Assembly (NCBI GenBank): GCA_017871115.1
Contig: JAFCIZ010000007.1
Coordinates: forward strand, 1,736,001-1,800,000
Length of the DNA stretch: 64,000 bases
Direction of reading: 5' to 3'
Origin: Cunninghamella blakesleeana
Lineage: Eukaryota > Mucoromycota > Mucoromycetes > Mucorales > Cunninghamellaceae
How positions within the stretch are numbered: the first letter of the stretch is position 1; each line of letters begins with the position of its first letter. A program made the translations under genes and the position numbers. Shown piece by piece: positions 30,846 to 64,000 of this stretch. The notes under the pieces were generated by a model, which was not told the origin of the DNA, searched no databases, and worked only from the letters and a program-made list of their open reading frames with translations.

Positions 30846-33800
30846 ATGATCATGAGTGATCAAGATATTGAAATGGTAGAAGCAACTTCACTACAGCAAA
30901 CAATTATAAATAAAACAACCTTACATAATCCTTTAGACTTTGATCTTCAAAAAGCTGTCAACCAATTAAACACTCACTGCCATAATAATAATCGCGATCA
31001 TAGCCATAGTAGATCGATATTAGATTCCATTGATTTAACCATATTTCAAAAATATCTTTCTGAACCTCATGATCAATCTAAATCACAACTTTTAAATACT
31101 GTTTCGCAATGTTTACTTTATCGTCCTTGGACTCTTCAAATTATTCAGTGGTTTAGACCTCTAGCGATCGATTTAATTGCAAGAATAATTACTCCTGGAT
31201 TTATGGATTTTATTCAAAAGGATTCCTTCTCGAATTCAAGTATTACTGTATATAAAATAGAACTGGTGGCTAAAACTTTTGCTCTAACGCTTCCAATTGT
31301 ACCCCAAGTAAAAAGGTAAATCTTGCTAAAATAAAGATAAAGATAATCATATATATACATATATATATTCGTAATAAATAGACTTCGTATTGCTTAACCA
31401 ATAATCTCTTTTAACTTTTGTATATATATATTAGCTTGGCTGTATCATATTTCATGCATTCTCCTTCATTATTTGAACGGTTATTACAATTTTCAATAGA
31501 CAACACTACTCATGTAAGTAACATATGAATATGTAGATATGTAGATATATATAAATATAAGTATATATGTATATATGTATAATTTGGCTAAAATTATCAT
31601 TTTTTCATTTTTTATTTCATAGACTTCTTTAGACAAAATAGAAATTCAAGATTTATTATTTACTGCATATCAATTATTACATTTTTCAACTAATACATTT
31701 GCTCCAATTTGGAATTGGGGTACTCTTGTACAATTATTAAACTATCCATATGATCCTATTCGATTCCTTACTGTTTTATGTTTGGCAAAAGTTTATAGTT
31801 TAAGCGATCTTCAAACCAAAAATCTTTTAAACTCCGTTATGGGCTATTCTATTGACGAAAATGAAGATCCTATTATGGCCACTTTAGATGGTAATAGTAT
31901 TGATTTACGTATGCTCAGGTAATATTTTTTCTTTAAAAAAAATAGATAAATATATATATAAGTTATATTGATAATAGAACAAAAAAGCTCACAATTCAAT
32001 TTTTTTAATTTTTTATTTAGTTTATGGGAACAATACAACGTTGCCAATGCGCAAATTTGCCTCACACATAATCCATCTTATAATATACCTGATAATTCAA
32101 TCCATTCTTTAACTCCCGATGATTTATGTTCTTCAGTAACAGATATCTGTGGTATTTTAATGGCAAAGCCAATTAATGATATTCATCATGTCCGCACTGC
32201 TCAACAAGATCCTCAATTAATTCTCACTGATACAACTAGTAAAAATTTACATGCTATTGCTTTAGCTTTATCTATTGGTGCTCCAACTTTATTAGAAGGT
32301 GTTACTGGTGCTGGTAAAACCACTTTAGTAGAAGATTTAGCTATTAGAACTGGAAGAGGTGACCGTAAGTGCTTATTTTTTTATATTTTATCATGATTTT
32401 TATCTGTTTACTTATTATAATTTTTCTTTTTTTTATATTTAAATAATTTCTATAGAGCTTGTCAAAATTCATTTAGGAGATCAAACAGATCCTAAAGTAC
32501 TTCTTGGAACATATGTTTCAACTTCAACACCTGGGTCATTTAGATGGCAATCTGGAGTATTAACTACAGCAGTACAAGAAGGTAGATGGGTTTTAATTGA
32601 AGATATTGATCTTGCACCAGCTGAAGTTTTGTCCGTCTTACTTCCATTACTTGAAACAAAAAAATTATTTATTCCATCTCGCGGTGAAGAAATCAAAGCA
32701 AAAGAAGGTTTTCATCTCTTTGGGACTAGATCTTTAATCCCATCTAAATCTGGTAAAGGATTTCATTCTCGTGGTGGTGAAATGGTCACTGGTGCTAATT
32801 TATGGACTCGTGTACATGTCGATGCTTTATCTATAACTGAATTGGAACAAGTCGTACGTGAAAAATTCAAATACATTGGTGATTTTACTCGTCATGTTAT
32901 AGAGCTCTTTGAAACCATTATGAGTATTTATCAAGATCCTAACTTTACTGCACTTTCATCATCTACTTTTGGCAGATTTATATCTACTCGTGATCTTATG
33001 AAATATTGTTATCGTATTGATACATTGATTGGATCTAAATTAGACTCATCATCATTGTCAACATCAGACTTGAATCAAGAAGTAGGAATGGATGAATCAA
33101 TTCGTTTGGATTTATTTAGCGAAGCAGTGGATTGTTTCTGTGGTATGATATCTGATTATGCTACTTGGGTGGTGGTACTTGAAAAAATCGGTGAACCTCT
33201 TCAATTATCTCCAGCCATGGTACGTCATTATATTGATCAATACAAGCCCTCCTTTGATGCATCTGATATTCATGTTAGAATTGGCCGTGTTAATTTAACC
33301 TCTATTGTTGCTCAAGGTCGCCAAAAACAATCTTTAATGAAGCGTGAAAAGAAACGTCCCTTTGCTACAACAAATCATGCTTTAAGACTTATGGAAAGGA
33401 TTGGTGTATCTATACATTTAAATGAACCTGTTCTTTTGGTGGGTGAAACAGGTACTGGTAAAACTACAGTTGTACAACATTTGGCCGACATGATGCATCA
33501 AACGTTAGTAGTAGTTAATATGTCTCAACAATCGGATAGCTCGGATTTGTTAGGTGGATTTAAACCTGTAGATGGAAAAGTGCTTGCTATACCTATACGC
33601 GAAGAATTTGAAGGATTATTTGAAAAAACATTTTCTATAAAGAAAAATGCTAAATTCTTAGAAGCCGTTCGTAAATCATTTATACATAAAAAATGGAAAA
33701 CCTTTGTTGGTTTACTTGATCAATCTATCAAAATGTCCCAACAAAAATTCAGATTAGAAGATGATCAATCTAATAATGATAATAACGATATGGAAAATAA

Positions 33801-36800
33801 AGATGAAGAAAAGAAAAACCCCGGTAGACGTGTTACTTCACCTCAATTAAGAAATGCATGGAAAACATTTGAAAGACATTTAGAAGAATTTAAGGTACAG
33901 CAAACTCAATCGCAAAATAAATTTGTTTTCAGCTTTATGGAAGGGTCTTTAGTAAAAGCAGTACGTAATGGGGATTGGATATTGATGGATGAAATTAATT
34001 TGGCTACAACAGAAACTTTGGAATGTTTATCTGGATTATTAGAAAATGCTGAAAGTTCTTTATTATTAACAGAAAAAGGTGATTTAGAACCAATTAAAAG
34101 ACACCCCAACTTTCGTCTCTTTGCTTGTATGAATCCAGCAACTGATGTAGGTAAACGTGATCTTCCACCTGGTTTACGAAATCGATTTACAGAATTTTAT
34201 GTTCATTCACCTGACTCTCGCTATGAAGATTTATTACAAATTGTTCGACAATATATTTCCCCCATTGCTACTGGTGATGAACGTGCCTGTGAAGATGTAG
34301 CTCAATTTTATATGGAAGCTAAAAAATTATCACAACAGCATAAATTAGTAGATGGTGCCAACCAACGACCTCATTTCAGTATTCGTACCCTTTCTCGTGC
34401 TTTAACTTATGTGTGTCAAATTTTCCCCACTTATGGTTTACGACGATCTCTCTATGAAGGCTTTTGTATGACATTTTTAACTCAATTAAGCAAGGAAAGT
34501 GAAGCCTTAATGCATCAACATATTTATAAAACTATTCTCAATAATATCAGTAATCCTAAACATTTAATCACACAAATCCCAAGACAACCACAAGATAATT
34601 ATATTCAGTTTGGTTATTTCTGGTTAGAACAAGGTCAATTTGATCCAATAGATGATACTGGTTATATTATGACTCCCTCTGTTGAAACTAAGTTATATAA
34701 TCTTGCCCGAGTTATTATGTCTCGTAAATTCCCTGTACTTATTCAAGGTCCTACATCTGCTGGTAAAACAAGTATGATTGAATATCTTGCTAAAAAGACA
34801 GGTCATCGTTTTGTACGTATCAATAATCATGAACATACAGATTTACAAGAATATCTTGGTACCTATGTATCCAACAATGAAGGTAAACTTGTTTTCCAAG
34901 AAGGTGTACTTGTTGAAGCTCTTCGCAATGGCTATTGGATTGTATTGGATGAATTAAATTTAGCTCCTTCCGATGTTCTAGAAGCACTTAATCGATTACT
35001 TGATGACAATCGTGAATTACTTATACCAGAAACTCAAGAGATAGTGAAACCTCATCCTCATTTTATGCTTTTTGCTACTCAAAATCCTGCTGGTCTTTAT
35101 GGTGGACGTAAAGCATTATCTCGTGCTTTTAGAAATCGTTTCTTAGAACTTCATTTTGATGATATCCCTGAAGATGAATTGGAAACCATTCTCTCTAAAC
35201 GATGTCGCATTGCTCCTTCCTATTGTAAAAAGTTAGTTCAAGTGTATAAATCATTAATGGAACGTAGACAAAGTACTCGTATTTTCGAACAACGACATGG
35301 ATTTATTACTTTACGTGATCTTTTCAGATGGGCAGGTCGTGATCCTAATGGTTATCAAGAATTAGCAGAACATGGTTATATGTTATTAGCAGAGCGTTGT
35401 CGTCGTGATGAAGAAAAAAAAGTGGTGAAACAAGTTCTTGAATCTGTCATGAAGGTTACTTTAAACGAAAATGAAATTTATGACACATCTCGTCTTGAAG
35501 AATTTTCTATATATGACCAAATGCTTAAAAACAATGCTGCTCAATCTGGGCAAGATACTGCTTTAGTATGGACAAAGGCTATGAAAAGACTTTTTACACT
35601 TGTTGCAAGATGCTTGAAATATAATGAGCCCGTCCTCTTAGTTGGTGATACGGGTTGTGGTAAAACAACAGTATGTCAAATGTTGGCAGAAACTTATGGA
35701 AGAGAATTACATATTGTCAATTGTCATCAAAATACGGAAACAGGTGATTTACTCGGTGGACAACGCCCTGTACGACAACATGATAATAATAGTAACGACC
35801 AACAGCAAGAAGAAAAAGAAGAAGGAAAGGATGGAAAACAGAAAGCATTATTTGAATGGCACGACGGTCCTTTAGTACAATCTATGCGCCATGGTCATTT
35901 ATTCTTATTGGATGAAATTTCACTTGCTGATGATTCTGTTTTGGAACGTTTAAATTCTGTTTTAGAACCTAGCCGTTTATTAGTCCTTGCTGAAAAAGGC
36001 GGTAAGCACGTTGAAGAACTTTATGCCAATTCTGGATTCCAATTCTTTGCTACAATGAATCCAGGCGGTGATTATGGTAAAAAAGAATTATCTCCTGCTT
36101 TAAGAAACCGTTTTACTGAAATTTGGGTACCAGCTGTTACTGATCATGATGATTTATCAAGTATTATTAATGAACAATTTTCTCATCCAAGCTTACAGAT
36201 ATATACTGAAAAAATATTGAATTTTATTGATTGGTATATGAAAGCTCTCGGTCAATCACGCACAGTGATTTCTCTTCGTGATATTTTATCTTGGGTTAAA
36301 TTCATTAATACTGGTGTGAGCAATGGTTTAGATGCTCAATTATGTTTTGTTCATGGTTGCTGTATTGTCTTGTTGGATGGTTTAGGCTCTCACGGTTCTT
36401 CTGGGTCATTTTTAGCTGGTGATGCTTTAAAAGATTTTAGATTAAAATGTCTCCGTGAATTAGTGAATCAACCTGAAGCGACAGAAAAGAATATTCTTGG
36501 CCATATCACACAACATGATTCTGTTTCTATTACTGATGATTATTTTGGTATTGGCCCATTCCAAATACCACGTGGCAAGCTCGATCAAACCGATATCAAA
36601 TTCACCCTTTTAGCTCCTACAACAAGTGATAATGCTATGCGTGTTATTAGATCTATGCAATTAAAGAAACCCATATTATTGGAAGGTAGTCCTGGTGTTG
36701 GCAAAACAAGTTTGATATCAGCATTAGCAGCAGCTTCAGGCCATAATCTTGTAAGAATCAATTTATCAGAACAAACAGATTTGATGGATTTATTTGGTTC

Positions 36801-39800
36801 TGATTTACCTGTTGAAGGTGGTAATAGTGGTGAATTTGCATGGCGAGATGCTCCATTTTTACAAGCAATGAAAGCTGGTGATTGGGTTCTTTTAGATGAA
36901 CTTAATTTGGCTTCCCAATCTGTACTTGAAGGTCTTAATTCATGTTTGGATCATCGTGGTGCTGTTTACATTCCTGAATTGGATCGTGAATTTTTCTGCG
37001 CTCATGGATTCCGTGTGTTTGGCGCTCAAAACCCTCTTCAACAAGGTGGCGGCCGTAAAGGTTTACCAAAATCCTTTGTTAATCGTTTTACTCAAGTTTA
37101 TGTGGAACACTTGACAGCTGATGATTTATTATTTATCTGTACACATCTCTTCTCAGAATTTGAACCCAATGTTTTACAACAAATGATTGACTTCAACACA
37201 GCAATGTATAATGAAACAATGATTAAATGCAGTTTTGGTAGAAAAGGCAGTCCCTGGGAATTCAATCTACGTGATGTATTTAGATGGTTAGAACTTATGC
37301 AAAAAAATAATGTCTCTAACCCTATGGAATACTTGGATACAATTTATATTCAACGTATGAGAACCCATGAAGACCGACTTAAAGTTATTGAATTATATGA
37401 AACTATCTTTAATACCAAATATAATCAACCACTCCACCCTCAATGGAAAATTACTCCTAATAAATTAACGATTGGCAACTCATCATTATCTAGATTACAA
37501 TGTGCTGAAAATAATAGAAACAATTCAACGTCATCAGATAACCAATATCATATATTGCAATCCTTCCTTTCACCTCTACAATCATTAATGAAATGTGTAG
37601 AATCTGGTTGGATGGCCATTCTTACTGGTCCATCAGCGTCTGGAAAAACTTCTTTAGTTCGTTTGCTCAGTAAAATCACTGGAAATAGATTAGAGGAATT
37701 TGCTATGAACAACAGTGTAGATACAATGGAGTTGTTAGGTGGTTTTGAACAAGTTGATTTAAATCGTCATAGACAAGTCATCATCGATAATTTACGACAA
37801 ATGACAAATAGAGGAACCCAGGTTTTATTAGATTATTTATCGACTCTTGAATCAACTTCAATAGAAGAGCGACAAAAATTAATACAACAAATTAGACAAT
37901 TGAATGACGCTTGGTTTGCTTTGGAAAAACATCAGCAATTGCAACGTGCATCTGAACATCATGCAAATGAAAGTTTAGACTATAGTTTATTGTCAGCACT
38001 TTTGAATTATTTAAATAGCACGTGCTCTCTTGATAAAGAAGCATCAGTACCTATTTCTCAAATAGTAGAATCTATCAAACATTTACAACAATTGGAAAAA
38101 GATTCAGTAGCTGGAAAATTTGAATGGATAGATGGTCTTCTTATTAATGCATTGGAAAATGGACACTGGTTACTTATAGATAATGCTAATTTATGTAATC
38201 CTTCAGTGCTTGATCGATTAAATCCTCTTTTTGAAAACAATGGTGTGTTAATGGTGAATGAACGTGGTTTAGTGGATGGTGCCGTAAAAGTGATTAAACC
38301 TCATCCTAACTTTAGAATGTTTATGACAGTAGACCCTCAAAATGGCGAACTTTCACGTGCTATGCGTAATCGTGGTATCGAAATCACCCTTGTTGATTCT
38401 CAATGGAATAATAATAACATTCAAGACGTTACTAAACTTGCTAATGGACTTAGTTTACGTGGACCTCAATTACCTTTAATACTCAATGATTTACAAGAAG
38501 AAGCTGCTTTACAACGTAGACATTTAAGAACAAATAAAAACGTACGCGATTATCTCTTACTGGTAAGGTATATTATTGAACGCCTTCAGCGTGGTCAAAC
38601 TTTGAAAAGTGCTATACAAGAGTCATTTTATCAAGTATTTGTTGATATCAAGGAAGTCCCTTCTACTCTTTCGAAACTCCTGGAAATGGATGTGGAAGAA
38701 GATATTCTTCAAGATATGCTTTCACCAACAAACTGTCATTTATTTATTGGAGGTAGCCAACTTCAACAAGATTCTCGTTTAGCAACAGTTGCCCTTCAAG
38801 GTGCTTATTTTTTACATACAGTTCAACAATTAAATAATATTGATATTAAGAATAAAGATAATGAAGATGATGATGGTGATGAATCAAAGAAACAGCAACA
38901 GTTGAAGAGAATTGAAATAGCTGGTGATTATTTCTTAGAAATGATGTCAATGGAAGATTATGGTATTCGCTTACGCTGGTTAGCATTTGTTGTACAACAC
39001 TGCCCTATTAAACATACTCAACAAATAGAACGTCTTGGATATCTTACGAAATTAATAAAAGCACATTCTATCTTTTTAGAATGGTCTAAAGATAATACTT
39101 GTTCATTAGTAAGTGTTATTTTATAATGTATTCATATATACATAAATTTGACAAAAATTATGTTAACCATATATTTATTTTATTATGTTTATTTGTCTTA
39201 TTTTTCTAGATTAAAAATGGCTACAAAATATTTATTCGACTTTGTAAACAAGAATATGCAATGACAATGATTAGAACTGCTTCACAACGCTTAAAAGTAA
39301 CCAATTTGACAGCTATCCAACAATCATATTGTCTTCAAGAAGGTAGAATTAGTGAATCCCAACTTTTACATCCTATTGTAGCCAAACTATACCCTTACTT
39401 CAACCTTGTTTATGGTAGCTTATTACAGTGGATCAATGAACGTGGCTATATTAATTCGTCGTTGAAGGTAATTTTTATTTTAAAATATAATTATAAATTA
39501 TTTATTCAATTATGCATTTATATTAATCTCTAAAATATAAAAACTCCATGTACTTTTCATACTTATTGTAGGAATTTGATTGGATCAACGATATATTAGA
39601 CCTCTCTGACTTTGCTTGGGATTTAATTCAATCAACTACACTTCCTTTAGATAACCTTTTGATTATTTTACGTTCAACAAAGGAATTAATGTCTCATGAA
39701 TCATTCAATACATCACTATTTACACCTTGTCGTGATTCGATTGATAATATTATGTCATCCTTTAATTTTGAAATATCAAAATCAATGAAAGAATTGTGGA

Positions 39801-42800
39801 AATATTTTGGACCAGCAACTTTATCTTCAAAAACTTTGTATGAATTAGAAAGAGAACTTATTAAAATTAGTACAACTTTAAACTCCTATGATTCTGCTAA
39901 CGGTAAATATAATATATAAGTATACTTACATATATATATATATATATTAAATAAAGAAGAGGGAAAATACTGAATTTTTTTTCAATATCTAATATTACGC
40001 TTCTAGACGATCATTTAAAACCAACCGATGCTATTCTCCATGTGAAACAAGATATAAAAGAAACCATTATAGAAGGTATTGCTACTTTATACGCGGTGGA
40101 CGAAAAGAAAGAAAGAAATGCTCAGAAGCTTGCTAAATCATTACAACAATTACCTGAGGTAAAATAATATATACTTATTTAGTTTATTATTATTATTGTT
40201 ATTAAATATGATTATATAATTTCATTATTGCTTTTTATTGTTATAGTATCTTCGCACTCAATTGGCTACTACTAATACAATCAACATTGATTACACATCC
40301 TGTTGGAATACGGCTCTTATACCATTATATGATTATACCAGTTTAGTTAAAGAAATGGAACTTCTCTCTCAACTTTACGTTTTATCCTGTGATCAAGACA
40401 AACATGTAATTTTATATAAAAAAATAGTAAAAAAACGAAAACATAATAATAATATATGGTTATAATTATACTTACCCTATATCTGTCTTATCTATTTAAA
40501 ATTATAGGTGATACCAACCGTCGTAATAAACAACTTGAATGAGCTTCGTTCTTTTATTTTAAGTAAAACATCGCGTCCTCCACTTGATTTGGTACCCTAT
40601 CAACGATTACTTTGGACTCTTGACTCAAGCAGTAAGACAGTTATACTTTTTACTTTTTTATTTTTTTAAAAAAAACTTTTGCATTTATTATTTTTAACCT
40701 ATATAATGCTTTTTTATATTATTTTTTTCTTAATACTAGACCCACAGAAATTAGATGTTATTCTTCCCGGTTTAATTCAAGACGCTGTACATCATTGGCA
40801 ACAACGACTTTGGCGATCAAGCATATTACAAGCTCAGTTACATCAATTAGTAAAAACTAAGAATGAAAAGGTAAAAATTTATCTTTCTTTTATATAAAGA
40901 ATAGTTGGTGTTTTTTTACTAATATCATATATTAAATTCTAAATTATAGGAATTAATCATTAGTGAAGGTTCGCTTAATCTCTATGAAGGTGTCGAATCT
41001 TTAGTTTGTCTTAACATAATGTAAGTATTTTTATTTTTATTTTTGTTAAAATAATATTAATGTATTTATAAAATATGTACTAATCCGTTCAAATCAATAA
41101 TTTTATATAGTGGTTCTGTTGATCGTATTAATACTGAAATGATGGAAACTGCCCTTAAACAATTGAAAGGCCTTAAAGATTATCTGGCCACCAAAATAGA
41201 TATTGCAAACAGAAAAGTATTTGAACTTATTACTTTAATATCAATGGCAACACAGGTAAACTATAAAATAATTAAGAAAAACAAATTAATTAAAAAACTA
41301 AACTAATTAATATATATATAATACTTTGCTTTATTTTGATCTTCTTATAATAAATAGCTTTTCACAGCATCATCAGCAATGATTTCTAAAGACATATATA
41401 ATGCAATTTCTCCTCAATTAACTATGGCCTTATTAAGTATTACAAAAGTATCACACGAAAATATTTGGACTGCATCTAAGGATTCTATTGACTATAAAGA
41501 ATTTCATGGATACCTTTATAATATTACAGCTTTATTAAAGGAACACAAGTTCAACGATCACTATATATCAGCTATTATTTCATTATCTGAAACTATACAA
41601 CATTATCAAAATGAAAATAATTCGTCATTCTATCTTGCAGCTGGTAAAACTAGAACACTTATTGGTTTATCCTTTGTTGTATGCTATGTTCCTGATTATC
41701 CTGTTGATCCTACATCTGAACCCCGCCTTCAAGTAGATTTATTAACAAGAAAACAGCAACAGCATATAAATGAAATTGACGTTCGTATAAATATTGAAGA
41801 CATTTTAACTGGTAATAAAACAAACTCCAACATTGAAATTGAAAAATCTCGACTCGATAACATTGATGCTCAATTGTCGAAAACTATTACAACATTCTCC
41901 TTACGACCCGCCAAATCACAATTGGATGATATTTTTGTGGATTTACGATACTTGCAACAAAATATGTTGGAAAAGAATGTGAAATCATTATTGAGTGATT
42001 TAGAAAAGGGGGATTTATCTAATGCAACTGTCCTTCAACGAGAAAAGCTTTTACAAAGTAATGCACTTCAATTTATTGATCGTGTTCAAGCTAAATTTGC
42101 TATGTATCGTGATATTCTTCAACCTTTGTTAGTAGCAGTGGATAATATAAAATACGGTTTAAGATTGATGACTTCAGTTTATAAAAAGGATGGAACTGAT
42201 ACTTTCTTGGCTACTGTTATTCAACTATTACTTTGTAATCCTGACATTTCACAACATGATCAACAACATCTTGATTGGCATACTTTGGCTACTTTGGACC
42301 AACTTACTGTAATAAAAAATGTCATTTTTGATCGTGCGTCTATGAGCCGTAAATGGGCATTCTATCTTCGCTTATTAATTGTGGTACTACAGCACCTTGT
42401 AATTAGTATTTATAACACTGGATATATTCAAGCAAAAGATTTAAATTCCTTAAATGTTGTATTTTCTGAAATTGTATATATTTGGAAAGCAGCTCAAGAT
42501 TACAAACGTCAAATGGAAGCAGAAAAGGAGCAGCTTTATAAGACACGTGCAAAGAAATATGAACCTACTACTGATGAAGAATTGGATGAAATGGATATGA
42601 AAAAGACATTTGCTGACTTTAATGATGAATTTGCAGATTTAGCTATTGATGATGATGTTGAAAACAATAATAAATCATCTATTCCAAATCAAGTAGAAGA
42701 AGAATCTGTATTGGATCCAATAGATATTCAACGAATCTATATCATTCATCAATCTTTATACAATGACTTTAATGTAAACATTATATCACGACATGGGCCT

Positions 42801-45800
42801 AAGAATTGGGATAGAGAGCATTTGCAATCCTATTCTCTTGCCGGGCAATTAGCTAATTTATCTACTTCTGCATTTGGTACGAATATGGATCTTATTTCTC
42901 AGGCTGCTCATTTACGCGTTACCGATTTAACTATTCGCCGTCTTGAGTCTAGTGATTCCTTCTCAATGATCAGTGACGACATATATGACTTTTATACCTG
43001 TGAAAATGTTAATGAAGCTAAATTGGTTGAGCCTGTATTAAGAAGATTCAAGGATAAAATATTATCTATTCTAGCTGATTGGCCGGAACATGCTGTCTTA
43101 CAGCAATTAATTACTATTTGTGATCGTATTCTTGGTTTTTCAATCACCTCTCCTGTAGCTAAATTTCTTACTGGTATCGAATTATTATTACAAAAATCTG
43201 AAGATTGGGAAGCTTATGCTGCTAAGCATGTATCTATTAGTGCTGAAAGGGATGAACTTGTTAAAATGATTATTCGTTGGAGACAACTGGAATTAAACTG
43301 CTGGCCTAAATTATTAGCTGCTCAAGAGCAATACAACAAGGCACCTGTATATGAATTATGGTTCCAACTATATGATGCTATCAATGCTCCTATCTTTGCT
43401 GGCGGTGATAAGGAAACAATGAAGAAGAATACGGAAGAGTTATTAGCAGCTTTGGATCAATTTATGCAATCATCATCATTAAACCAATTCAACTCACGAT
43501 TGGATATGATCAACTGTTTTTACCGTCAAACTATACTTCAAGCACAACTCAGCGATGATAAACACGAAAAGAGTAATTATACCAAAGTATCCAGCTTGTT
43601 ACATAACTCATACTTGTATTACTCTCAGTTTAAAGATCATGTCAAGCTTATGTTTAACCAACTTAGAAAGCCTATTGAAAAGGATCTTAAAGATTTCGTC
43701 AAAATTGCCACTTGGAAAGATGTTAACATTTATGCTTTACGTCAAAGTGCTTATAAAACTCATCGTCAACTTCATAAGTGTATTCGTAAATACCGTGATG
43801 TTTTAAATACTTCTATGCTTACTGTGATCGCTAATTATAATGAAGAACGTGCGATGTTCCAATATGGTGATGAAAAACGATATAATGATATCAACAAAGG
43901 TTTTATTGATCAATTATCTCAACCTAAATTCTGGCTTGTATCGACAAAATTACCCGACCAAGCTACTTCATACGATTGGTCTTCTGCACCAGAAGTAAAA
44001 CGTCATTTAGTTAATTTGAATGCTACACTTTCAAGATTACAATCAATTTGTCAAACATCTATTTTCCAAATCACCAAAGCCTTGGCAACAACCCAATTAG
44101 AAGAATTTATGGATGAAATTATTGGACAAATCAAGAATTTCCAAAAAGAAACTCCAGCAGAACTTACTGAAGAAAATAAATCCATGGTGAAAAATCAAAA
44201 GCTACTTAAAAAGAAAGCATTAGTTGACTTTTTGAAAGAATTGAAACGTTTGGGATTAAAATGGCGCACTCCAGATTCATTAGTAGAACGTAATTCTAAG
44301 GCATCTATCTTATTTAAGCAACGTATTGCAACACTCGAAAATATTTTGGTACAAGGATCTCATTTATTCAATAAGCAACATCAATCACTTTCAAGTTTCT
44401 GTGGATTTTCTCAAGACATAATTGGTTATTGGTCAAGAGCAAACGAATATTATTACCGAAGTATTGCTAGATTAACTCATTTAAGATCTGTCAGTAAACA
44501 AAATGTCAGCAAAGATTTATCCATGCTTGAAGTAGAAAGAAGTATGGCCGCTACGGAACATATGCTCTCTATGGTTATTAAAGAAAGATCTATTCTTTCA
44601 CGGTTCGAAGATAAATTACAAGTATTACAAGGTGCTTCTATTCAACTGGCTGCCTTTTTTGATCTTCAATCAACCATCACTCATCGTGAATTTAACTCAT
44701 CATTATTCAATAGTGATTCTGAACTTGGCTGTCGTTTAATTCTTCAAAAAAATACTACTGATCAAATCAATTTCTTGTTACAACATGCCATATCTGTTAT
44801 GAAAATTCAGTACAGCAACAACAATAGCAATTTCGTATTAGATCAAGTTCATGGATTATGGAATAAACTTGTTACAATGCAAAAAGAAATCGATCATGTA
44901 TTTGGACAACGTTATCTGTATCCTCAATCATCAACTGGTGTGATATTACTTTCTACTGATATTGAATCTACTTTACAGCAAAACATCAGCATCTTTAGAG
45001 ATATTAATTCATCACTTCTTGAACTTTTGGAAGATAAACAAGAACTCTACTATTTAGTGTATCCTATTACGCAACAATTGGATTACTATTTAAATCATGT
45101 ACAAAAGGACAAGATCTCATCATCCATGATAACGGTTAATGAAGGAGATGATAACAATGACATAACTATGCTAACTTTCCGTGATAAAGTATTTGCTTTT
45201 ATTGATGCTATATTGGTTGCTGTCCAAGATTTAAAGAAGATTAAATCACCAGAAGTAAATAACAATAATAATAATAGCACTGATGAAATAGATGATCAAT
45301 CTAACAATATGATGGATAATTATATTCAAGATCAACACAATCGACAATTTGAACTTACCGACGCACTTCATTTAGAAACACTTGTCAAACGTTGTATGAA
45401 TTTATTAACATTATCACTTCAACTTTCCCAAAAACATACTACAACCGCCAATTCTGAAGATGACTCTCAGCGTGAAATTTTAAATCTTTTACAACAAGTC
45501 TATCCTTTCTTACAACAATACATGTGGTTAGCTCAGCATACACTTGGTGAAATTTTATTACATCATAAATCCATGTCTAAAATGACCTATTGTCTTATCA
45601 ACTCCTTTACCATGATTATTACAAAAGGTTTTTGTATGCCTGAAGGTGCAGCTGATGAAGAAGAAGGCGATGCTGAAGGAACAACTGCTGGTACTGGTAT
45701 AGGTGAAGGTGAAGGTAATAAAGATGTTAGTAATGAAATTGAAGATGAAGAACAGGTATTGGGAACTCAAAATGAAGAACAGTCCAAGGATGAAAATAAA

Positions 45801-48461
45801 CCTGAAACCAAAGAAGAAAAACAAGGTATGGATATGGAGAATGATTTTGAAGGTCAACTTGAAGATATGGAACCTGACGAAGATCAAGAAGAATCTGACG
45901 ATTCTGATGATGAAGATGAAGACCCTGATGAGCAAATTGGCGATGTTGATGATATGGATCCTGATGCTGTAGATGATAAGATGTGGGGTGATGAAGCAGA
46001 AGAAAACCTTAAAGAAAGTGATAAGACTGTGGATCAAGGACAAAACCAAGATCAACAACAAAAGGAAAGCGATATTGTTGCTCAAGAAGAAGAAGAAGAT
46101 TCATCTAAACAAGATCAACGTGATAATAAGAAAAAGGATGATCAACAAAAAGAAAATAATCCACAAGATGATGATAATGCTCAACAAGGTGATGAAGACG
46201 ATGAAGAAGGTGACCAGCAACAACAAGATGGCGATGATGAAGACAACGAAGGTGCCAGTGAAGAAGATGAAGAAGGTATTGAAAATCAACCTGGTGAAAA
46301 AATGAATGCTGAAATTCCTGAAGCTGAAACACTTGAATTACCTGATGATTTGAATATGGATGGTGATGATGAAGATGGAAAGGATGATGGAATTGAGCAA
46401 AACGAAGATGATGCAATGGACATTGATGATCAACAGCAACCTGAAGACGAAACTGATGAGCCCTTCCAGGATCCCTTAGATAACGTTGACCAAAATGGCG
46501 TTGAAAATGACCAAGGATCACTTCATGAAGAAGGTGATGATGATCAAGAAATGGAAGATAGTAATGCTCATGTTAATAAGGACAAAGATGAAGATGGAGA
46601 AGAAGAAGAAGAAGGTGAAGGTGAAAATGGTGAAGAAGAAAATCAACCTGAAGAAAACAATGCAGGTGATTTAGATAATCAACAACAACAAGGTGCTACT
46701 ATTGATGAAGATGAAGAAAACGATGAAAAAGATACAAAAGGTCAAAATCGTGAACAACCTAATAGCGAAGCTATTGCTGATAACCAATTTGGTGTACAAG
46801 GTGATGCTGGTAAAACAAGTGCAAGCTCTCATGGTCAAAAAGAAGGAGAAGAAGATGATGGTGGTGACAATGAAGATATGGATAAAGATGAAGATGAAAA
46901 GAAAAAACAAGAAAAGAGCGGTATTGCTGACCAAGGTTCTAATCAACATCAAAATGAAGATACTATGGAAGATCAGGATAAAAATAAAAAAGATAATATG
47001 AAATCCAACCCTCAAAGAAGTCTTGGTGATGCTCTTGAAAACTGGAAGCGACGCCTAGGTGATGTGGCTGATGCTGAAGAAGATGAAGAGGATAATGGTG
47101 GTGAAGAATTGGATGATAAAAAAGAAGATGAATCATCAAAAGAAGCTGCCATTAACGAAAACAATCCCTTTGAATATGTTAAAAATGATGAAGAAGCTCA
47201 TGATATGCAAACAATGGGTAATGCTGCTGCCGATCAAGTTCAAGATTTAAACCTTGGTGCTATAGACGAAGAAATGAATGATGCAGATGTGAACGCTGGT
47301 GAAGAACAAGACGAAGATATAGATATGGAACCAACGGATTCTACAGCTATTGATACAATGCCATTACCAAAAGAAACACTAGATGCACATCATGAAGATA
47401 ATGACCAACGGGGCGGCGTAATACTTAGTAAACAATTACCTCAATCAACAAATACCAATATTAATCCAGATGAAGAAGAATTACATGGATTAACAGTGGA
47501 TGAATCTGTTATTAGCCGCGAGCCTTTAGAACAAGAAGATATTGAACGTATGCGTAATGAATTAGAAAATAAAGTATCAGAATGGCGTGAAGAAGGACGT
47601 GACATGCAACAAGCTAGAGATCTATGGCAAGGATATGAAAACCTGACGCATGATTTAGCTATGGGACTTTGTGAACAACTTCGATTGATTTTAGAACCTA
47701 CTTTGGCGACTAAATTAAAAGGGGACTATCGTACTGGTAAACGTTTAAATATGAAAAAGATCATTCCTTATATTGCAAGTCAATTTAAAAAAGATAAAAT
47801 CTGGTTACGTCGTACCAAACCAAGCAAACGTCAATATCAAATCATGATTTCTGTTGACGATTCCAAATCCATGTCAGAATCTCATTCCGTTCAATTAGCT
47901 TATGAAACTTTATCTTTGATATCTAAAGCCCTTTCTCAATTAGAAGTTGGTGATATTTCTATTACATCGTTTGGTGAACGAATTAGATTATTACATCCTT
48001 TTGACCAACCTTTTACAGCAGAATCTGGAGCTACAGTTTTACAACAATTTACTTTTGCTCAAGAAAAGACATATGTGAAGAATTTAGTAGAAAGTTCCTT
48101 ATCCTTGTTTGAAAATGCTAAACATGGAGCTTCTCATAATTCAGAATTATGGCAATTACAATTGATTATCTCGGATGGTATTTGTGAAGATCATGAAACA
48201 TTAAAATCATTGGTAAGAAGAGCCATGGATGAGCATGTGATGATTATCTTTATTGTGGTGGATAATAAACCTGAAAAGGATTCGATTTTAAGTATGACCA
48301 ATGTTAAATATGTTACCACCAATGGAAAGTTATCTTTACAAATGTCACCTTATTTAGAAACATTCCCCTTCCAATACTTTATGATCTTGCGTGATATTAA
48401 CAGTTTACCTGAAGCTTTATCTGACGCACTTCGTCAATACTTTAGTTTTGTAGCTGCTTAA
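30846..48461 (+). CDS. MDN1: Midasin, giant AAA ATPase of 60S ribosome biogenesis
   Basis: Dynein-like AAA ATPase that strips assembly factors from pre-60S particles in nucleolus and nucleoplasm. Fourteen exons: 30846-31315, 31435-31513, 31623-31918, 32021-32364, 32456-39108, 39210-39467, 39572-39902, 40007-40158, 40247-40405, 40508-40631, 40740-40870, 40950-41020, 41111-41255 and 41358-48461. They total 5,438 residues, slightly longer than yeast Mdn1. Six P-loops are visible near residues 379 (GVTGAGKTTL), 727 (GETGTGKTTVV), 1160 (GPTSAGKTSM), 1459 (GDTGCGKTTV), 1807 (GSPGVGKTSL) and 2121 (GPSASGKTSL). Walker B motifs are WILMDEINLA, WIVLDELNLAP, LFLLDEISLA and WVLLDELNLA; AAA1 has IEDIDLAP and AAA6 a degenerate LLIDNANL. 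A long linker is followed by a Glu/Asp/Gln-rich region (about 4499-5139) and a C-terminal MIDAS domain with DDSKS (about 5237), which grips substrate UBL domains. Introns cluster at the 5' end and between 39.1 and 41.4 kb. A second ATG at 30852 is equally possible. Confidence 0.97.
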
Positions 48462-54791: not shown

Positions 54792-55178
54792 TTATACCCA
54801 ACCTAACTTTGTAAAATTTAAATCAGGGCACTGACTTGGCTCAATCAATGTATTTTTCCCTTGATTACGTGGATCATCCGGGTCATTTGGATCAGGAAGA
54901 CAATGGTTGTTAGGACAACAGCCACAATAATATGGATCTTCACCATATTTACAAGCGATTGCAATGCATGCTATGCCATCGCACAATCCACTAAGTGAAG
55001 GATCAGTTTCTATTTTACATTTTCCTTCTTTATCATATGGGCACTCAGTAGGGTCATATAAACATTTTCCATTATATTCAGCACCAAACACACAATTATC
55101 ATCTTTTGGAATATTTTCATCAGAAATACACCCAAGAACAAATATGGATATAAATACTATTAGTGTTTGCTTTTTCAT
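54792..55178 (-). CDS. Secreted cysteine-rich protein (128 aa, 13 Cys)
   Basis: Single-exon gene with a signal peptide (MKKQTLIVFISIFVLGCIS). Twelve cysteines follow the signal region (C29, C39, C46, C54, C66, C71, C76, C85, C87, C88, C93, C117) plus C17 near the cleavage site. The sequence YYCGCCPNNHC and a run of Pro/Asp/Asn (PDPNDPDDP) are distinctive. The segment LCDGIACIAIAC faintly recalls CDGYCKGIACWC in the secreted protein at 1090-1452. No known domain is recognised. The ATG at 55178 directly opens the signal peptide. It is isolated in repeat-rich DNA, a typical place for fast-evolving secreted proteins. Confidence 0.65.
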   Translation of the reverse strand: MKKQTLIVFISIFVLGCISDENIPKDDNCVFGAEYNGKCLYDPTECPYDKEGKCKIETDPSLSGLCDGIACIAIACKYGEDPYYCGCCPNNHCLPDPNDPDDPRNQGKNTLIEPSQCPDLNFTKLGWV

Positions 55179-57230: not shown

Positions 57231-58743
57231 TGTATATATTTTTTAATAAATTAACAAAAAAAAGTTAAAAAAAAAAATTTTTTTTTTCGTTCATTTTGTT
57301 TTGGAAAATAAAAATTCTCCTTCACTCAATTAGCTTATCATAAGGTTATATTCAAATAAAATCGCACTGTTATACATCTTTTTTGAATACATATGTAACA
57401 TTATATATTTATTAACAAGAATAATAATAATATTGCCTACAGCTAATAAAATATAATCCAAAGTCATCAGTATTTAAATATTAAAAAATTTAGAGGTAAC
57501 CCTGGCGGCATATGTTTTTACCTTCATATATTATTATTATTATTGTTTATTTATTTTAAATTTATAGTATAAATATGTCGATTCTAATAAATCGTATGAT
57601 ATTATTTTTATTACACACACGTTTATAAAAAATAGCTAAAAAAAATAATTTTAAATATACATATGAAAATAAATAGAACTTTTTTTATACAAAAAAGGTA
57701 AAACTTCTGTTCAAATAAATAGTACATCTAGTTCTACTATTTATACATATATTTTAATAAGAGATGGTATTATAAATGCGAAACCATCTATATCTTTAAG
57801 AACAATAGCTTAAGTACAGTTCATAATAATTGATAAAAATGAAATAAGCTTCTTTCTCATGAATCGAGTTCCGGAATATGTACTTATACGATTTTCTTTA
57901 TTTAATTATATCACTTTCTTTTTAGACCTTTAAACACTTAATAATATGTAGTTTTTTTTGAATTTGTAAGCATGCCATACATAAATAAATTTTTAAGTAT
58001 AGGTTATATATATATCCGTACATACTTAAATATACAGGTTTATAAAAATGATATGCAAGAGTTTCCTTTTTTGTAAACTATATAAGCTTGCATTTTTTTT
58101 GAGGCGTAGAGTGTCGCTAAACCAATAAAATTCTATTATTACTATTTTTTTTCTTTTGGTTCTATAGTATAAAACTTTTAAGTGCTTGTACCCATATATA
58201 CAAAAGGAAGTCTTTTTTTTTGACTTTTAAATTAGGAAAGTAGTAGATCTCTCTATTTTTATATCTTATGTACTTTACGTAAATCAATTAAATATATACT
58301 TATTATTATTATTATTATTTTCTTTTTCACGCGTATAAGGTTTCTCTAATTTAATATAATTAAAAAAGTAAATTTTCTTTCTTTTAATTCTGTAATACAG
58401 TATTAATTTTTTTTAATGTTCATAGAGGTATATTAAGTGAGCAATAAATATATATACCGCGTAGTATCATACGTAAGCTAACATAATATTTAAAGTTTTT
58501 ACAAGTTTTTTTTTCCTTTTTTTTTTTTTTACAAAAGTAGTAGTTGTTTCTTAATTTGTTTAGACTTGTAAACACTTTTTTTATTTTTTGAAATCCAAAG
58601 TAAAGAAGTATAACAAAAAAAACATTTGTATTATTAATATATCATAAGTGTGGGTGAACTTTTCGATTTTATTTTTTATATAAAAAGAAAACATAATATG
58701 TTTCTTTTTCTTTTTCATTCAACTTATTAACAATCTCTTCTTG

Positions 58744-58761
58744 GTAGGTTACTTTTATAAC

Positions 58762-58806
<45 letters not shown>

Positions 58807-58904
58807 TACATAGATATAGATATAGATATAAATCTAATCAACAAATTTTAATTAATGTAAAATATTCTATTTTTGGTGGTGTTTTTTTCTTTTCTTAAAA
58901 TTAG
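58744..58904 (+). other. Possible 5' UTR intron of peptide gene copy 1
   Basis: GTAGGT at 58744 and a T-rich tract ending TTAG at 58904, ten bases before the ATG, would define a leader intron that contains the (TA)n microsatellite. Copy 2 has the same signals at 63077 and 63217. This is inference from splice-like motifs only. Confidence 0.35.
58765..58804. repeat. (TA)n microsatellite, about 40 bp
   Basis: Pure TA run followed by GATACATAGATATAGATATAGA. The paralogous run in unit 2 (63098-63122) is only about 25 bp and has one fewer GATATA unit. Confidence 0.95.
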
Positions 58905-58913
58905 ATCCTTAAA

Positions 58914-59120
58914 ATGAAAAATACCGTATATCTTCTCTTTGTCTTCATGTTAAGCATTACTCTCGCTTATGCTTCCGATGCTTCTTGCAGAAGCTGGTGT
59001 CAAGGTAGACATTTAAACAATGCCGGAGATGACTTCGTCTGCTGTCACTCTGGTCATGATGACAATGCTGATTGGTTACCTGATGACTGTATCTGCCATC
59101 TTCCTTGCAATAGCTGTTAA
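58914..59120 (+). CDS. Secreted cysteine-rich peptide, copy 1 (68 aa)
   Basis: Encodes a 68-residue precursor: a signal peptide of about 20-21 residues (ending LAYA) and a mature peptide of about 47-48 residues with eight cysteines at 25, 29, 43, 44, 59, 61, 65 and 68. The spacing is C-x3-C-x13-CC-x14-C-x-C-x3-C-x2-C. The C-x3-C plus C-x-C pair is the hallmark spacing of cysteine-stabilised alpha-beta peptides such as defensins. However, the usual first upstream cysteine is missing and two extra cysteines end the chain, so a related or novel fold is equally possible. The middle is rich in Asp, Asn and His and is acidic, unlike classic cationic defensins. The coding sequence is identical to copy 2 except for one synonymous change (His codon CAT here, CAC there). 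The leader has a candidate TATA box and a possible 5' UTR intron. Confidence 0.8.
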   Translation: MKNTVYLLFVFMLSITLAYASDASCRSWCQGRHLNNAGDDFVCCHSGHDDNADWLPDDCICHLPCNSC

Positions 59121-59506
59121 TTTTAAAATCACAAACTTTTATTATAATATATATTTATATTTTTATGATTAAACTTCGATCTTTGTAATACTATTTTTAC
59201 TTGACATTATCCATTTGAATTTTGTACTACTTAAATCCATAAATAAAATATTGTATAATTTCCTAATATGTATATCTTGTGTTTATTTTTTATTCTAATA
59301 TTCTCTACGTAGTATTACGTATTATTCTTAGTTAACATATTTATATGATGCTTATATAAATTTTTTAATCACGGTCTTTAACGTTTTTTAACAACATATT
59401 TAAAGTCAATATATATATACTTACAAAAGGGAAATTTTTTTAAAAAAATACTTGATTTTTTTATGTATTTTAAATAAATAAAGGTCATAAACAAATGTGC
59501 ATACTA
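59121..59506. other. 3' flank of peptide gene 1 up to the transposon
   Basis: AT-rich, homologous to 63434-63786 but diverged. A shared segment TTTTGTA(C/T)TACTTAAATCCATAAATAAA marks the alignment. The TA at 59505-59506 is the left copy of the transposon target duplication. Confidence 0.7.
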
Positions 59507-59536
59507 TGGTGCATCTAAGTTATAACCAGAATTTTT
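59507..59536 (+). repeat. Left terminal inverted repeat
   Basis: 30 bp, perfect match to the reverse complement of 62196-62225. Identity stops abruptly at position 31. Confidence 0.92.
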
Positions 59537-59902
59537 TTTACCATTTTTAGTAAGAAAAAATTTCAACATTTTATTAATAAAAATAAAAAAATAATCCAAT
59601 ACAAAAATAAATATGATATTTAAAAATAAAAGTACTGGATTGTTTCTATTTTTTTGCTAAAAAAAAATTGTTAAAAAAAAAGTTAAAATTGGTCGGTGGG
59701 AGGCTGATTTAGCTGGTGAGGGTATAAATTGCTCCACCCAAAAAATAATTTTATAGGGGATTTATAACGGCAAAATATTTAACCTTCGGTGTTTTAATTT
59801 GATCCCTAGAAGATTCTGTTTAATACCAAATATTAAAAGTTTTTTTATCTTTTCATTTAATGTCTTTTACTACTATTATATATTTGCTTTTTTTTTTGAT
59901 TT

Positions 59903-62062
59903 ATGACTAAAGGACATAAAAAATTTGCCAATAAAAGATTGCGTACTTCAACTGGAAAGTTTGTTAAAAAAACAGCCGAAATTCAATCTAATAACGAATC
60001 TACAGAAAGCTTTGATCAGGATTGGATCGATGAAGATATCGAAATAGCTCTTGAAAGTGCTGCGGAAACTTTCAATGATAGCCACTTGGATATAACTGCC
60101 TCCAACAGTACAGCAGAAGAAAAAATAGCATGGTTGGAAAATGCAGATAAAAAATTTAAAGGCGCCTATACTGGTGAATCAAGATGGACGATCAATAGAA
60201 AGAGAAAAATAATGGAAAGAGCGGCTGTTGGATGCAAAACAATCGACAGTATATTCAAAAGGGTCTCAGTCAATACTAGTTGACAATTCATTTCAGAGCT
60301 TGAAAATAGTAAAGAAAAAGACTTAGAAGAATTAATCAATAAATTGACGGCTACTATCATGGACCAACAAAAAGATAAAACCAACTTTGATCTAGCTTAC
60401 AATATGAAGCATCGTGCCGTCAGATTTTATCTATCTTTTATGAAAGAAAAAAACCTTAATAGGATAGACTGTGCTTTAAAAACAGCAGATGCTATTCTAT
60501 TAATTGAAAATGCTACTACAACATCAAACATCACCAAGGCTATTCCATTATGGGCAAAAGAGTTCATGGAAAATGGTTGCATAGCAAAATCAATGCAAGG
60601 TCGTCATAGGAAACATGTTGGCATGTTATATAATGAAGAAATAAAAGAAGAATGTATTAAATGGTGGCTATCAGTTGATCCAAATAAAAGAGACGTCTCT
60701 GAATTAAAAAAGCATATCGAACGGTTAAAAATTATGAAAAGTTTTAACGTCAGCAATATTGGGCTATCTACAATACATTCATATTTATCAGCTTGGGGAT
60801 TTACGTTTAAAAAGAAAAGCAAGAACGTTTATTATGATGGACACGAGCGGCCTGATGTAGTAAAGTATCGTCAAGAATTTTCACAAAGGATGATAAATAG
60901 ATACAATAAATGGATGAAGCACTATTCTGGTAATAATTTGGAAATAGAAGACGTTGGACATATTAAAGTAGGCCATAAAGAAGTAATTGTAGTTACACAT
61001 GATGAATCTACCTTTTATGCAAACGACGACAAACCATGTGTTTGGATGGCTGGTAATGAAAGTATTATTAAACCAAAAGTTCCAGGTAGTTCAATTATGG
61101 TCAGCGAGTTCCAATGTCCTTGTCATGGAACTATGAAATATAAAGATAAAATATCAAGACAACTATTCTTTGCTGGTAATTACCGTGATGGTTATTGGAC
61201 TTCAGAAGATTTAGTCAATCAGCTTAAAGATGTGATAAAAATATTTAGAGCAATTCATGGAGATCAATGCATAGGAATTTTTTTATTTGACCAATCATCA
61301 AACCATAAGGCTTACGCAAAAGATGCATTGCTAGCGACAAGGTTGACTCTTGAAATAAAGGAATGCAAATCTAAAGAAAAATTTAAATTTAAAAAAGGAT
61401 ATTATTATGTGAAAGAGGGTGGGGTAGAGAATAAAATAGAGCAGGATTTTTATTTTTTTGTGAATCAAGTTAGAGATGGGAAAGCATTACGGGTTAAATA
61501 TATCAAGGGCATAAAGCAAATTTTAGAAGAGAGAGGTTTATGGATGGATAAAGACATATCACCAGAAAGGAAAGGAAAAAGCTGGCGCTTGAGTTGTAAT
61601 AAAAGAGTAGAAATGGATGGTCAAGATAAAAAATGTTGTGCAATTCATCGTTTATCTAGTCAGATAGATTTTAGAAATCAAAAATCAGCATTAGAAGAAT
61701 TATTGGAAAAGCATGATCTTAGACACGATCTGTACCCTAAATTCCACTGTGAACTTAATTGGATAGAAAGATACTGGGCAGATTCCAAAAGAATCATTCG
61801 AAGAAACTGTAATTATACATTTTCTGGATTGGAAAAAAATATTGAAAGTGCTTTAGATGAAGCTTCAGATATTATTCATATAAGAAGGTATTTTAATAGA
61901 TGTATTCGTTATATGGAAGCTTATAGTAAAGGTAATGATTACTGGGAAGCACATAAAAATATTACAGAAAAAAAAAATGATAAAGAATGTGATGTCGGTA
62001 TAGTTAATCAATTCAAAAATCATACAGCAAAATCACATAGAAAAGTATTAAAAAATCAGTAG
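59903..62062 (+). CDS. DDE transposase of the TA-duplicating element
   Basis: Catalyses excision and insertion of the surrounding element. Two open stretches, 59903-60283 and about 60284-62062, are in the same frame and separated by one TGA (60281-60283). A 48-bp GT-AG intron at 60249-60296 (GTATAT...TTTCAG) would remove the stop, keep the frame and give about 703 residues; otherwise the copy carries a nonsense mutation. The N-terminus is Lys-rich. A helix-turn-helix-like region (STIHSYLSAWGFTF) precedes YYDGHERPDVVKYRQEF. Catalytic acidic residues are Asp in THDESTFYA (61001-61003), Asp in LFDQSSNH (61289-61291) and Glu in LNWIERYW (61766-61768). The second Asp and the Glu are 158 residues apart, so the catalytic core carries a large insertion with a paired cysteine segment (KKCCAIHRLSSQIDF). 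The C-terminus is basic. Confidence 0.87.
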
Positions 62063-62195
62063 CTTTTCAATTTATTTTACATATATATACATATCATTTA
62101 ATAAAATCAAAAAAGAGTTGTAGTTATAACATTTTCGTAAAAAAAAATAGGCATAAAAATCGGGATTTCAAATTCAAAAATTGCACCAAAATTTT

Positions 62196-62225
62196 AAAAA
62201 TTCTGGTTATAACTTAGATGCACCA
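62196..62225 (-). repeat. Right terminal inverted repeat
   Basis: 30 bp, reverse complement identical to 59507-59536. The element ends at A62225 and is followed by the target-site TA. Confidence 0.92.
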
Positions 62226-62440
62226 TACGCGCATAACTATTATATTATGTTTAATGATCCACTAATTTAATATGCTTTTTCAGGGTACAGATGTACCTTT
62301 CGTCAAAAAAAAATATTGCCGACTTTTGCAAATATTGCCGAAGTAATACCTATACATCGTTAAATTTATAAAGATGGATACACTAATTTTTTTAATTTTG
62401 TAAATCATGTCAATAATTTTTTATTATTATTTTTATTTTT
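62226..62440. other. Right flank of the transposon, end of tandem unit 1
   Basis: Continues unit 1 after the insertion. It aligns with 63785-63992 at the end of unit 2 through shared words such as ATCAATTTAATATG-like and TTAAATTTATAAA segments. No gene. Confidence 0.7.
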
Positions 62441-63097
62441 GAGGCGTAGAATTACTCTAAACCAATAAATGTTTTAGAAAAGGTTATTACTATTATTTTC
62501 TTTAGTTCCGTAGTTTAAAAAAAATTTTAAGTATTTGTACCATATATAGTTAAGAAAATCTTTTTCTACACATTTTAATTTACAAAAGTGGTAGATCCCT
62601 CTATTTTTATATCTTATGTACTTTACGTAAATCAATTAAATATATACTTTTTATTATTATTATTATTTTCTTTTTCACGCGTATAAGGTTTCTCTAATTT
62701 AATATAATTAAAGAAGTATATTTTCTTTCTTTTAATTCTGTAATACAGTATTAATTTTTTTTAGTGTTCATAGAGGTATATTAAGTGAGCAATAAATATA
62801 TATACCGCGTAGTATTATACGTAAGCTAACATAATATTTAAAGTTTTTTTTCTTTTTTTTCTTTACAAAAGTAGTAGTTGTTTCTTAATTTGTTTAGACT
62901 TGTAAACACTTTTTTTATTTTTTGAAATCCAAAGTAAAGAAGTATAACAAAAAAACATTTGTATTATTAATATATCATAAGTGTGGGTGAACTTTTCGAT
63001 TTTATTTTTTGTATAAAAAGAAAACATAATATGTTTCTTTTTCTTTTTCATTCAACTTATTAACAATCTCTTCTTGGTAGGTTACTTTTATAACAAT

Positions 63098-63122
63098 TAT
63101 ATATATATATATATATATATAT
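63098..63122. repeat. (TA)n microsatellite, about 25 bp
   Basis: Shorter counterpart of the run at 58765-58804, inside the possible leader intron of peptide gene copy 2. Confidence 0.95.
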
Positions 63123-63226
63123 AGATACATAGATATAGATATAAATCTAATCAACAAATTTTAATTAATGTAAAATATTCTATTTTTGGTGGTGTTTTTT
63201 TCTTTTCTTAAAATTAGATCCTTAAA

Positions 63227-63433
63227 ATGAAAAATACCGTATATCTTCTCTTTGTCTTCATGTTAAGCATTACTCTCGCTTATGCTTCCGATGCTTCTTG
63301 CAGAAGCTGGTGTCAAGGTAGACATTTAAACAATGCCGGAGATGACTTCGTCTGCTGTCACTCTGGTCACGATGACAATGCTGATTGGTTACCTGATGAC
63401 TGTATCTGCCATCTTCCTTGCAATAGCTGTTAA
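63227..63433 (+). CDS. Secreted cysteine-rich peptide, copy 2 (68 aa)
   Basis: Encodes a precursor identical in every residue to the peptide at 58914-59120. The nucleotide sequence differs only by one synonymous third-position change in a His codon near the middle. The signal peptide, eight-cysteine pattern, leader-intron signals and promoter are shared with copy 1, except for an A-to-G change in the candidate TATA box (TTTTTGTATAAAAAG) and a shorter (TA)n run. The 3' flank diverges immediately after the stop codon. Two identical expressed-looking copies suggest selection for dosage, concerted evolution, or both. Function unknown; secreted defence or interaction peptide is the working guess. 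Confidence 0.8.
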   Translation: MKNTVYLLFVFMLSITLAYASDASCRSWCQGRHLNNAGDDFVCCHSGHDDNADWLPDDCICHLPCNSC

Positions 63434-64000
63434 TTTCTTTAATATTTTTTTTAAAAAAACTTAGCAAGATTTTATTATACTATATCTATTTTGTATTATT
63501 ATAATTGAGTTTTGATCTCTTTGTGAATTTTGTATTACTTAAATCCATAAATAAATATTTTTTTTTCCCTGATATATCTTGATTTCTTTTATTTTTCTTT
63601 TACGTATGTGGTATCACGTACTATTATTAATTATAATGCGCGTTTAATTGATATTTATATACGTTATTTACGATGCTTTAACAATATAAAGTTAATACGT
63701 ATATACTTGGGGTGTTTATTTTTTTTAAAAAAAAACTAGGTCTTATTATTTTAATATATAGAAACAGTAAACAAATATATTTACTAATACTCATAATATC
63801 AATTTTGTGCTTAATAGCACATCAATTTAATATGTTTTTCCGTGATCTTCATAGATATTATTTCATAAACAAAATTACCAACTTTTAGAAATACTGTCAA
63901 AGGAATATCTACACATCCTTAAATTTATAAAAATGGCTACATTCAATTTTCCTTTTTTTGTAAATACTTGAACAATACCAACATTTATTTATTGAGGCGT
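63434..64000. other. 3' flank of peptide gene 2 and start of a third unit
   Basis: AT-rich sequence homologous to 59121-59506 plus 62226-62440. The intact target site TA lies at 63785-63786. The last eight bases (63993-64000, GAGGCGT preceded by ATT) repeat the opening of units 1 and 2, so the array probably continues past the window. Confidence 0.7.

Follow-up and report, generated by a model that had tools for sequence, protein, structure and literature searches.

What do the cysteine-rich peptide genes at the right end of this locus encode, and do they form an expanding array? The locus is a 64,000-bp stretch of Cunninghamella blakesleeana DNA (hereafter the window), corresponding to bases 1,736,001-1,800,000 of contig C7 (3,102,702 bp) in an AT-rich genome of 31,936,959 bp and 12 contigs. 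A description made from the window's letters alone (the original prediction) had proposed an expanding tandem array of a secreted peptide gene, continuing past the window, which would show only its edge. We have found seven genes, grouped in two clusters, that encode defensin-like peptides. These are most likely copsin-like peptides of the cysteine-stabilised alpha-beta (CS-alpha-beta) type that would act on bacteria outside the hypha, with genes probably regulated through an upstream element and homogenised by gene conversion. We give this reading as a whole a probability of about 0.5.

Seven peptide genes in two clusters

Six-frame searches of the whole genome with c5 and c4 as separate queries (expect value, E, ≤10) returned the same seven matches, all on contig C7 (Table 1). 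Three genes lie in direct tandem at the right end of the window, c5 and c6 inside and c7 starting 828 bp beyond. The other four (c1-c4) form a separate cluster, 2.2-10.1 kb left of the window start, with two genes per strand. The array does continue past position 64000, where both homology and c7 were found, and c7 was the rightmost copy that the search revealed. With one copy on that side and four in a separate cluster on the other, the notion that the window holds only the edge of the array did not stand. Ordinary genes separate the two clusters. Within the left one, c2 and c3 point away from each other, carried by the arms of an inverted repeat (1.31 kb, 99.39% identical; C7:1728115-1729424 and 1730755-1732062).

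All seven copies are uninterrupted 68-codon frames. Residues 1-20, read by eye as a signal ending in AYA (THA in c4), leave a mature part of 48 residues, and we infer that the precursor is secreted. Eight Cys stand at the same places, invariant, in the seven copies, and the pattern of the mature peptide is C-x3-C, CC, C-x-C-x3-C-x2-C. The acidic loop before the last strand, D-D-N-x-D-W-L-P-D-D, is likewise identical in every copy except at x, and the mature 48-mers carry net charges of -2 to -6 (K+R-D-E, His not counted).

The c5 and c6 coding sequences share 206 of 207 bases, the sole difference being synonymous. The ratio of nonsynonymous to synonymous substitution rates (dN/dS) was 0.08-0.21 in 19 of the 21 pairs, and the remaining two encode identical proteins (c2-c3, no difference at all; c5-c6, the one synonymous base). 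This showed that the copies are held alike by purifying selection. Between the clusters, dS was 0.47-0.74 for pairs without c4, and all pairs with c4 gave 0.61-1.23, the larger values being rough.

Table 1. Coordinates of the peptide genes, associated sequences and other features. Contig coordinates (C7) of c1-c7 exclude the stop codon; the 207-bp window frames include it.
Feature	Position	Strand	Remark
c1	C7:1725933-1726136	-	six-frame search
c2	C7:1728341-1728544	-	six-frame search
c3	C7:1731635-1731838	+	six-frame search
c4	C7:1733563-1733766	+	six-frame search
c5	C7:1794914-1795117; window 58914-59120	+	68 aa, intronless frame
c6	C7:1799227-1799430; window 63227-63433	+	protein identical to c5
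c7	C7:1800828-1801031; window numbering 64828-65034	+	six-frame search; outside window
Near-identical block, c5 side	window 58251-59123	+	probable gene-conversion tract
Near-identical block, c6 partner	window 62599-63436	+	probable gene-conversion tract
Element TTGAGGCGTAG of c5	window 58099-58109	+	outside conversion block
Element TTGAGGCGTAG of c6	window 62439-62449	+	outside conversion block
Element of c7	window 63992-64000	+	last two bases past window
Proximal promoter block of c5 (TGGTA...ATAACAATTATATATA)	window 58742-58780	+	counterpart before all seven genes
Proximal promoter block of c6	window 63075-63113	+	counterpart before all seven genes
Transposon, 2,723 bp, 3' spacer of unit c5	window 59505-62227	+	terminal inverted repeats, TA flanks, genome copies
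Upstream frame of transposon, 126 aa	window 59903-60283	+	same phase as main frame, stop between
Main transposase frame, 567 aa from ATG	window 60359-62062	+	DDE_3 match weak
Cys-rich open reading frame, 120 aa	window 1090-1452	-	hydrophobic N-terminus
Cys-rich open reading frame, 142 aa	window 2042-2470	+	hydrophobic N-terminus
Cys-rich open reading frame, 128 aa	window 54792-55178	-	hydrophobic N-terminus

The peptides weakly resemble copsin

The only Pfam match of the c5 peptide was Defensin_5, the copsin family (PF18251; E 7.3e-05, residues 22-47), at 23.2 bits, which is under the curated cut-off of 25. A six-frame genome search with this model (E≤10) gave six places, all of them peptide genes of the family, with a best score of 23.7 and no copy over the cut-off. 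The model matched eight of nine aligned members at E≤10 and none of ten shuffles in which the Cys were kept fixed. In direct alignments with the copsin sequence printed in PMC4381204, Cys-fixed shuffles scored equally well in 3 (c4), 18 (c5) and 13 (c1) of 2,000 cases, and the c4 tail CICINPCNKC aligned to CTCINPCPRC of copsin.

The CS-alpha-beta motifs Cys2-x3-Cys3 and Cys5-x1-Cys6, as laid out in the available part of PMC5234102, occur in order as C25-x3-C29 and C59-x-C61 in the seven copies. The AlphaFold2 models are of low confidence (predicted local distance difference test, pLDDT, 60.7 and 49.8) and have the order helix, strand 43-45, strand 60-62. An NCBIfam scan of the peptide returned nothing of note.

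The nearest proteins, with single-sequence and alignment queries alike, were two of Cunninghamella echinulata. One represents a 90%-identity cluster of six sequences that lie on one 3,118,095-bp contig and are 99% identical; the other has 55 aa and 70% identity. This six-plus-one set mirrors C. blakesleeana, where six copies are similar and one is divergent, and suggests the same family in a second assembly. The protein collection searched, which may be poor in fungi, held no relatives beyond these two, and a copsin query of it gave no candidate.

A conserved element precedes six of the genes

GAGGCGT had been taken as the opening of the repeated unit. Its copies at 58101 and 62441 were recovered, the last one occupies 63994-64000 (and not from 63993), and each is preceded by TTTATAAA(A/G)ATG...TTTGTAAA. 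As originally described, the 68-codon frames of c5 and c6 follow 813 and 786 bases downstream of the first two; the third also leads to a copy, c7, after 834 bases. A unit boundary is ruled out, since homology passes straight through the motif, and before c1-c3 the motif occurs in two or three copies at other distances. A role as part of an intron was discarded because, as judged from the sequence, the next AG follows too closely. GAGGCGT is a conserved upstream element rather than the edge of a unit.

Scanning 1,000 bases before each of the seven genes, we found TTGAGGCGTAG twice each before c1, c2 and c3 and once each before c5, c6 and c7, always on the sense strand. GAGGCGT lies at -322 to -834 before these six genes, and an additional near-copy, GAGGCGTAT, stands at -934 before c3. 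The whole genome contains 12 perfect TTGAGGCGTAG sites (reversed control, 2), nine of which stand before the six genes. The other three are in or beside ordinary genes, with no peptide of the c1-c7 kind among the frames listed nearby. TTGAGGCGTAG was the only 11-letter word with at least five G/C common to four of the five less related promoters; none of 500 dinucleotide shuffles yielded any such word, a test that overstates the element, the promoters being paralogous and not independent. The 9-mer GAGGCGTAG has 29 genome sites, nine at the peptide genes and one at window 17829, versus 37 for its reversed control, and this lack of enrichment rules out a genome-wide regulatory site.

Across the element stretch, c5, c6 and c7 are 67-72% identical. 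In a DNA self-comparison no between-cluster alignment extended as far upstream as the element, a direct probe matched the c7 element to that of c1 over just 61 bp (75%), and a 106-bp c2 probe at E≤0.01 matched c2, c3 and c1 only and did not find c5-c7. Because c5, c6 and c7 have diverged here and the likeness between clusters is confined to a short match, constraint on the element is favoured. An alignment of eight elements (the c7 row starting 7 bases in, the c3 copies identical to c2 omitted) gave the approximate consensus GAGGCGTAGAGTTTCTCTnAACnAATAAAATTAGAAAAGT. Closer to the genes, a block of the form (C/T)GGTA...TATA lies before all seven, at -94 to -172. This conservation suggests that the family is probably switched together via the element, which comprises TTGAGGCGTAG and some 30 bp more, and via the proximal promoter.

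A putative antibacterial peptide and its alternatives

The hydrophobic N-terminal signal of the 68-codon precursor would direct export of an anionic 48-residue peptide. Its helix motif, C25-x3-C29, would pair with C59-x-C61 in defensin fashion, and C43 and C44 would be bonded to the C-terminal C65 and C68, not to an N-terminal Cys. The peptide would most likely hit competing bacteria outside the hypha; we infer this function, and a cell-wall target, by analogy with copsin and plectasin. Copsin binds lipid II and inhibits cell-wall synthesis (PMC4381204). The peptide is probably best described as defensin-like and leaning towards copsin, a candidate member of that family.

Several results weigh against this reading. 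Besides the sub-threshold Defensin_5 scores, the poor AlphaFold2 models and the inflated shuffle test of the element, a genome search with the classical defensin models PF01097 and PF00304 (E≤1) was empty, a PDB sequence search gave no relative of note, and Foldseek with the first model found no match in the PDB. The framework lacks Cys1, the partner of Cys4, since C25 is the first Cys of all seven copies, and the mature peptides have no GXC motif. The c4 gene has no TTGAGGCGTAG within 1,000 bases upstream. Finally, the mature peptides are anionic, and a loss of antibacterial activity has been reported for such fungal peptides (PMC5234102).

The charge could instead indicate a secreted peptide that retained the defensin scaffold and lost the antibacterial action, serving as a growth regulator, a signal or a host- or partner-directed molecule. 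A strongly acidic mature peptide under purifying, not diversifying, selection would be compatible with this, and so would Zytrisin-1, which is described in the accessible text of PMC5234102 as being without antibacterial action, the authors inferring the same for most Zymoseptoria defensin-like peptides; many anionic relatives are probably likewise without activity. We consider it somewhat unlikely, given that the closest Pfam family is antibiotic and that AfusinC is, in the excerpts available of PMC6181372, a fungal defensin both anionic and antibacterial.

It is more doubtful that the peptide is unrelated to CS-alpha-beta defensins and that its copsin likeness is a coincidence of Cys spacing. 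The Pfam score under the cut-off, the missing confident structure model, the altered framework and the lack of sequence relatives past the two C. echinulata proteins would all be expected in that case. Coincidence would not readily explain why C-x3-C and C-x-C stand in order together with a copsin-type C-x-C-x3-C-x2-C tail, nor why all ten Cys-fixed shuffles failed to match Defensin_5.

The antibacterial reading also has a bolder, improbable version, in which a re-anchored defensin, its strand-1 Cys tied to the C-terminal tail, would bind calcium through the acidic loop and act as a calcium-switched anionic antibiotic, encoded by genes with a private element and kept uniform by conversion. The model would be plectasin, whose anionic patch, in the part of PMC11222147 available, binds calcium and increases activity.

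Old tandem units share a probable gene-conversion tract

The c5, c6 and c7 units align end to end once a transposon is removed from the c5 3' spacer, and their motif-to-motif lengths without it are 1,617 and 1,553 bp (~1.6 kb). The 4.3-kb spacing between 58101 and 62441 therefore comprises one 1.6-kb unit and a later transposon insertion.

Blocks of 300 nt in the repeat showed 93-98% identity, far beyond chance. The near-identity of c5 and c6 covers ~0.85 kb with sharp edges, at the stop codon (within a few bases) and near -663. Within this block the coding part is 99.5% identical and the non-coding part 97.9% (613 of 626 aligned columns, with 35 gap columns), whereas the spacers outside reach 66-72% (147/204, 228/347 and 134/197). 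Compared with the non-coding block, c7 is 65.7% (c5) and 66.1% (c6) identical, no better than in its spacers (58.3-72.0%). Promoter constraint alone does not account for the c5/c6 identity, because c7 would then also be alike.

With 58-72% identity outside the genes and the block, the three units are, on this measure, old duplicates, and gene conversion, in which one block would have been overwritten with the sequence of the other, fits better than a fresh duplication. Recent duplication of a whole unit, in a freshly amplifying tandem array, would account for identical c5 and c6 proteins one base in 207 apart and for a further copy right of the window, but it is very improbable: the whole unit would be alike, the flanks on both sides of the block are at 66-72%, like those of c7, and the c7 promoter, 66% identical inside the block, shows constraint to be insufficient. 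On the contrast between block and flanks we reject fresh tandem amplification. The description of the cluster as expanding was accordingly not borne out, with old units, a recent change for which a conversion block is the best reading, and low dN/dS. Purifying selection and, probably, local gene conversion keep the copies homogeneous.

Comparison with known peptides

Copsin of Coprinopsis cinerea (PF18251; PDB 2mn5) shares with the c1-c7 peptides the C-x3-C motif followed by the C-x-C-x3-C-x2-C tail. It has 12 Cys versus eight, its two N-terminal Cys are missing here, and its mature form has 57 residues, whereas the C. blakesleeana peptides have 48, are anionic and stay under the Pfam cut-off. 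The fDEF6 peptides, from the same fungal order, Mucorales, also have mature parts of 44-60 aa, no propeptide and small paralogous sets, as presented in the available part of PMC4165938. The nine peptides listed there carry +0.5 to +13.4, in contrast to -2 to -6 here, the two groups being compared by description, not sequence. Licosin of Lichtheimia corymbifera, also Mucorales, has a 68-aa precursor and an intronless 207-bp coding sequence (excerpts of PMC13199095). Its six Cys, propeptide, cationic charge and 41-aa mature form differ, and Cys number, propeptide and charge rule it out as a close relative, the length match being so far a coincidence.

Clustered paralogous genes are also described for the Mortierella alpina malpisins and the Zymoseptoria peptides, and the latter have atypical cysteine frameworks as well; the accessible portions of these reports (PMC4165938, PMC5234102) do not describe gene conversion tracts or a common upstream element. 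Among the titles and abstracts listed for defensins in Cunninghamella, Mucorales and Mucoromycota and for gene conversion in fungal defensins, in a search with subscription papers mostly outside it, the present family is not described.

Defensin-like peptides of fungi serve as leads for antibiotics, and those described as antibacterial mostly combine a positive charge with six Cys in the usual order. An anionic family conserved in Mucorales, its framework shifted, would help to probe which scaffold features are required. The locus also offers a compact case of putative gene conversion in a small peptide family, together with a candidate regulatory element that is almost restricted to this family.

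The transposon and other features of the region

Tc1/mariner-like transposons are defined by inverted repeats at their ends and by duplication of a TA target. The ends of the insert agree with this definition, with 32-bp terminal inverted repeats (counting the flanking TA) and a TA at either side. The genome contains seven more full-length copies of 100% (rounded) identity, eight including that of the window, together with additional broken or older pieces. Because the copies are near-identical, the transposon seems to have moved recently. Shorter, diverged remnants retain only its ends and look like non-autonomous relatives. The main transposase frame matched Pfam DDE_3 at 13.8 bits, below the cut-off of 28.6.

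Of the three other Cys-rich frames in the window (Table 1), the 142-aa and 128-aa ones were scanned and had no Pfam match. A second, larger family consists of ~113-aa open reading frames that begin with a hydrophobic stretch and contain several Cys (ACYYEFNYRT...CPSDYP); three members were scanned and gave no Pfam family above the cut-off. At E≤0.001 the family yielded 16 matches, of which 13 lie on C7 (C7:1812303-1840511, from 12 kb right of the window; one with an internal stop) and three on contig C4 (C4:169663-179064). A glycosyl hydrolase family 20 gene lies at window 12696-13991. Among the longest frames of the window are those of 2114 and 2360 aa at 32782-48461, which look midasin-like.

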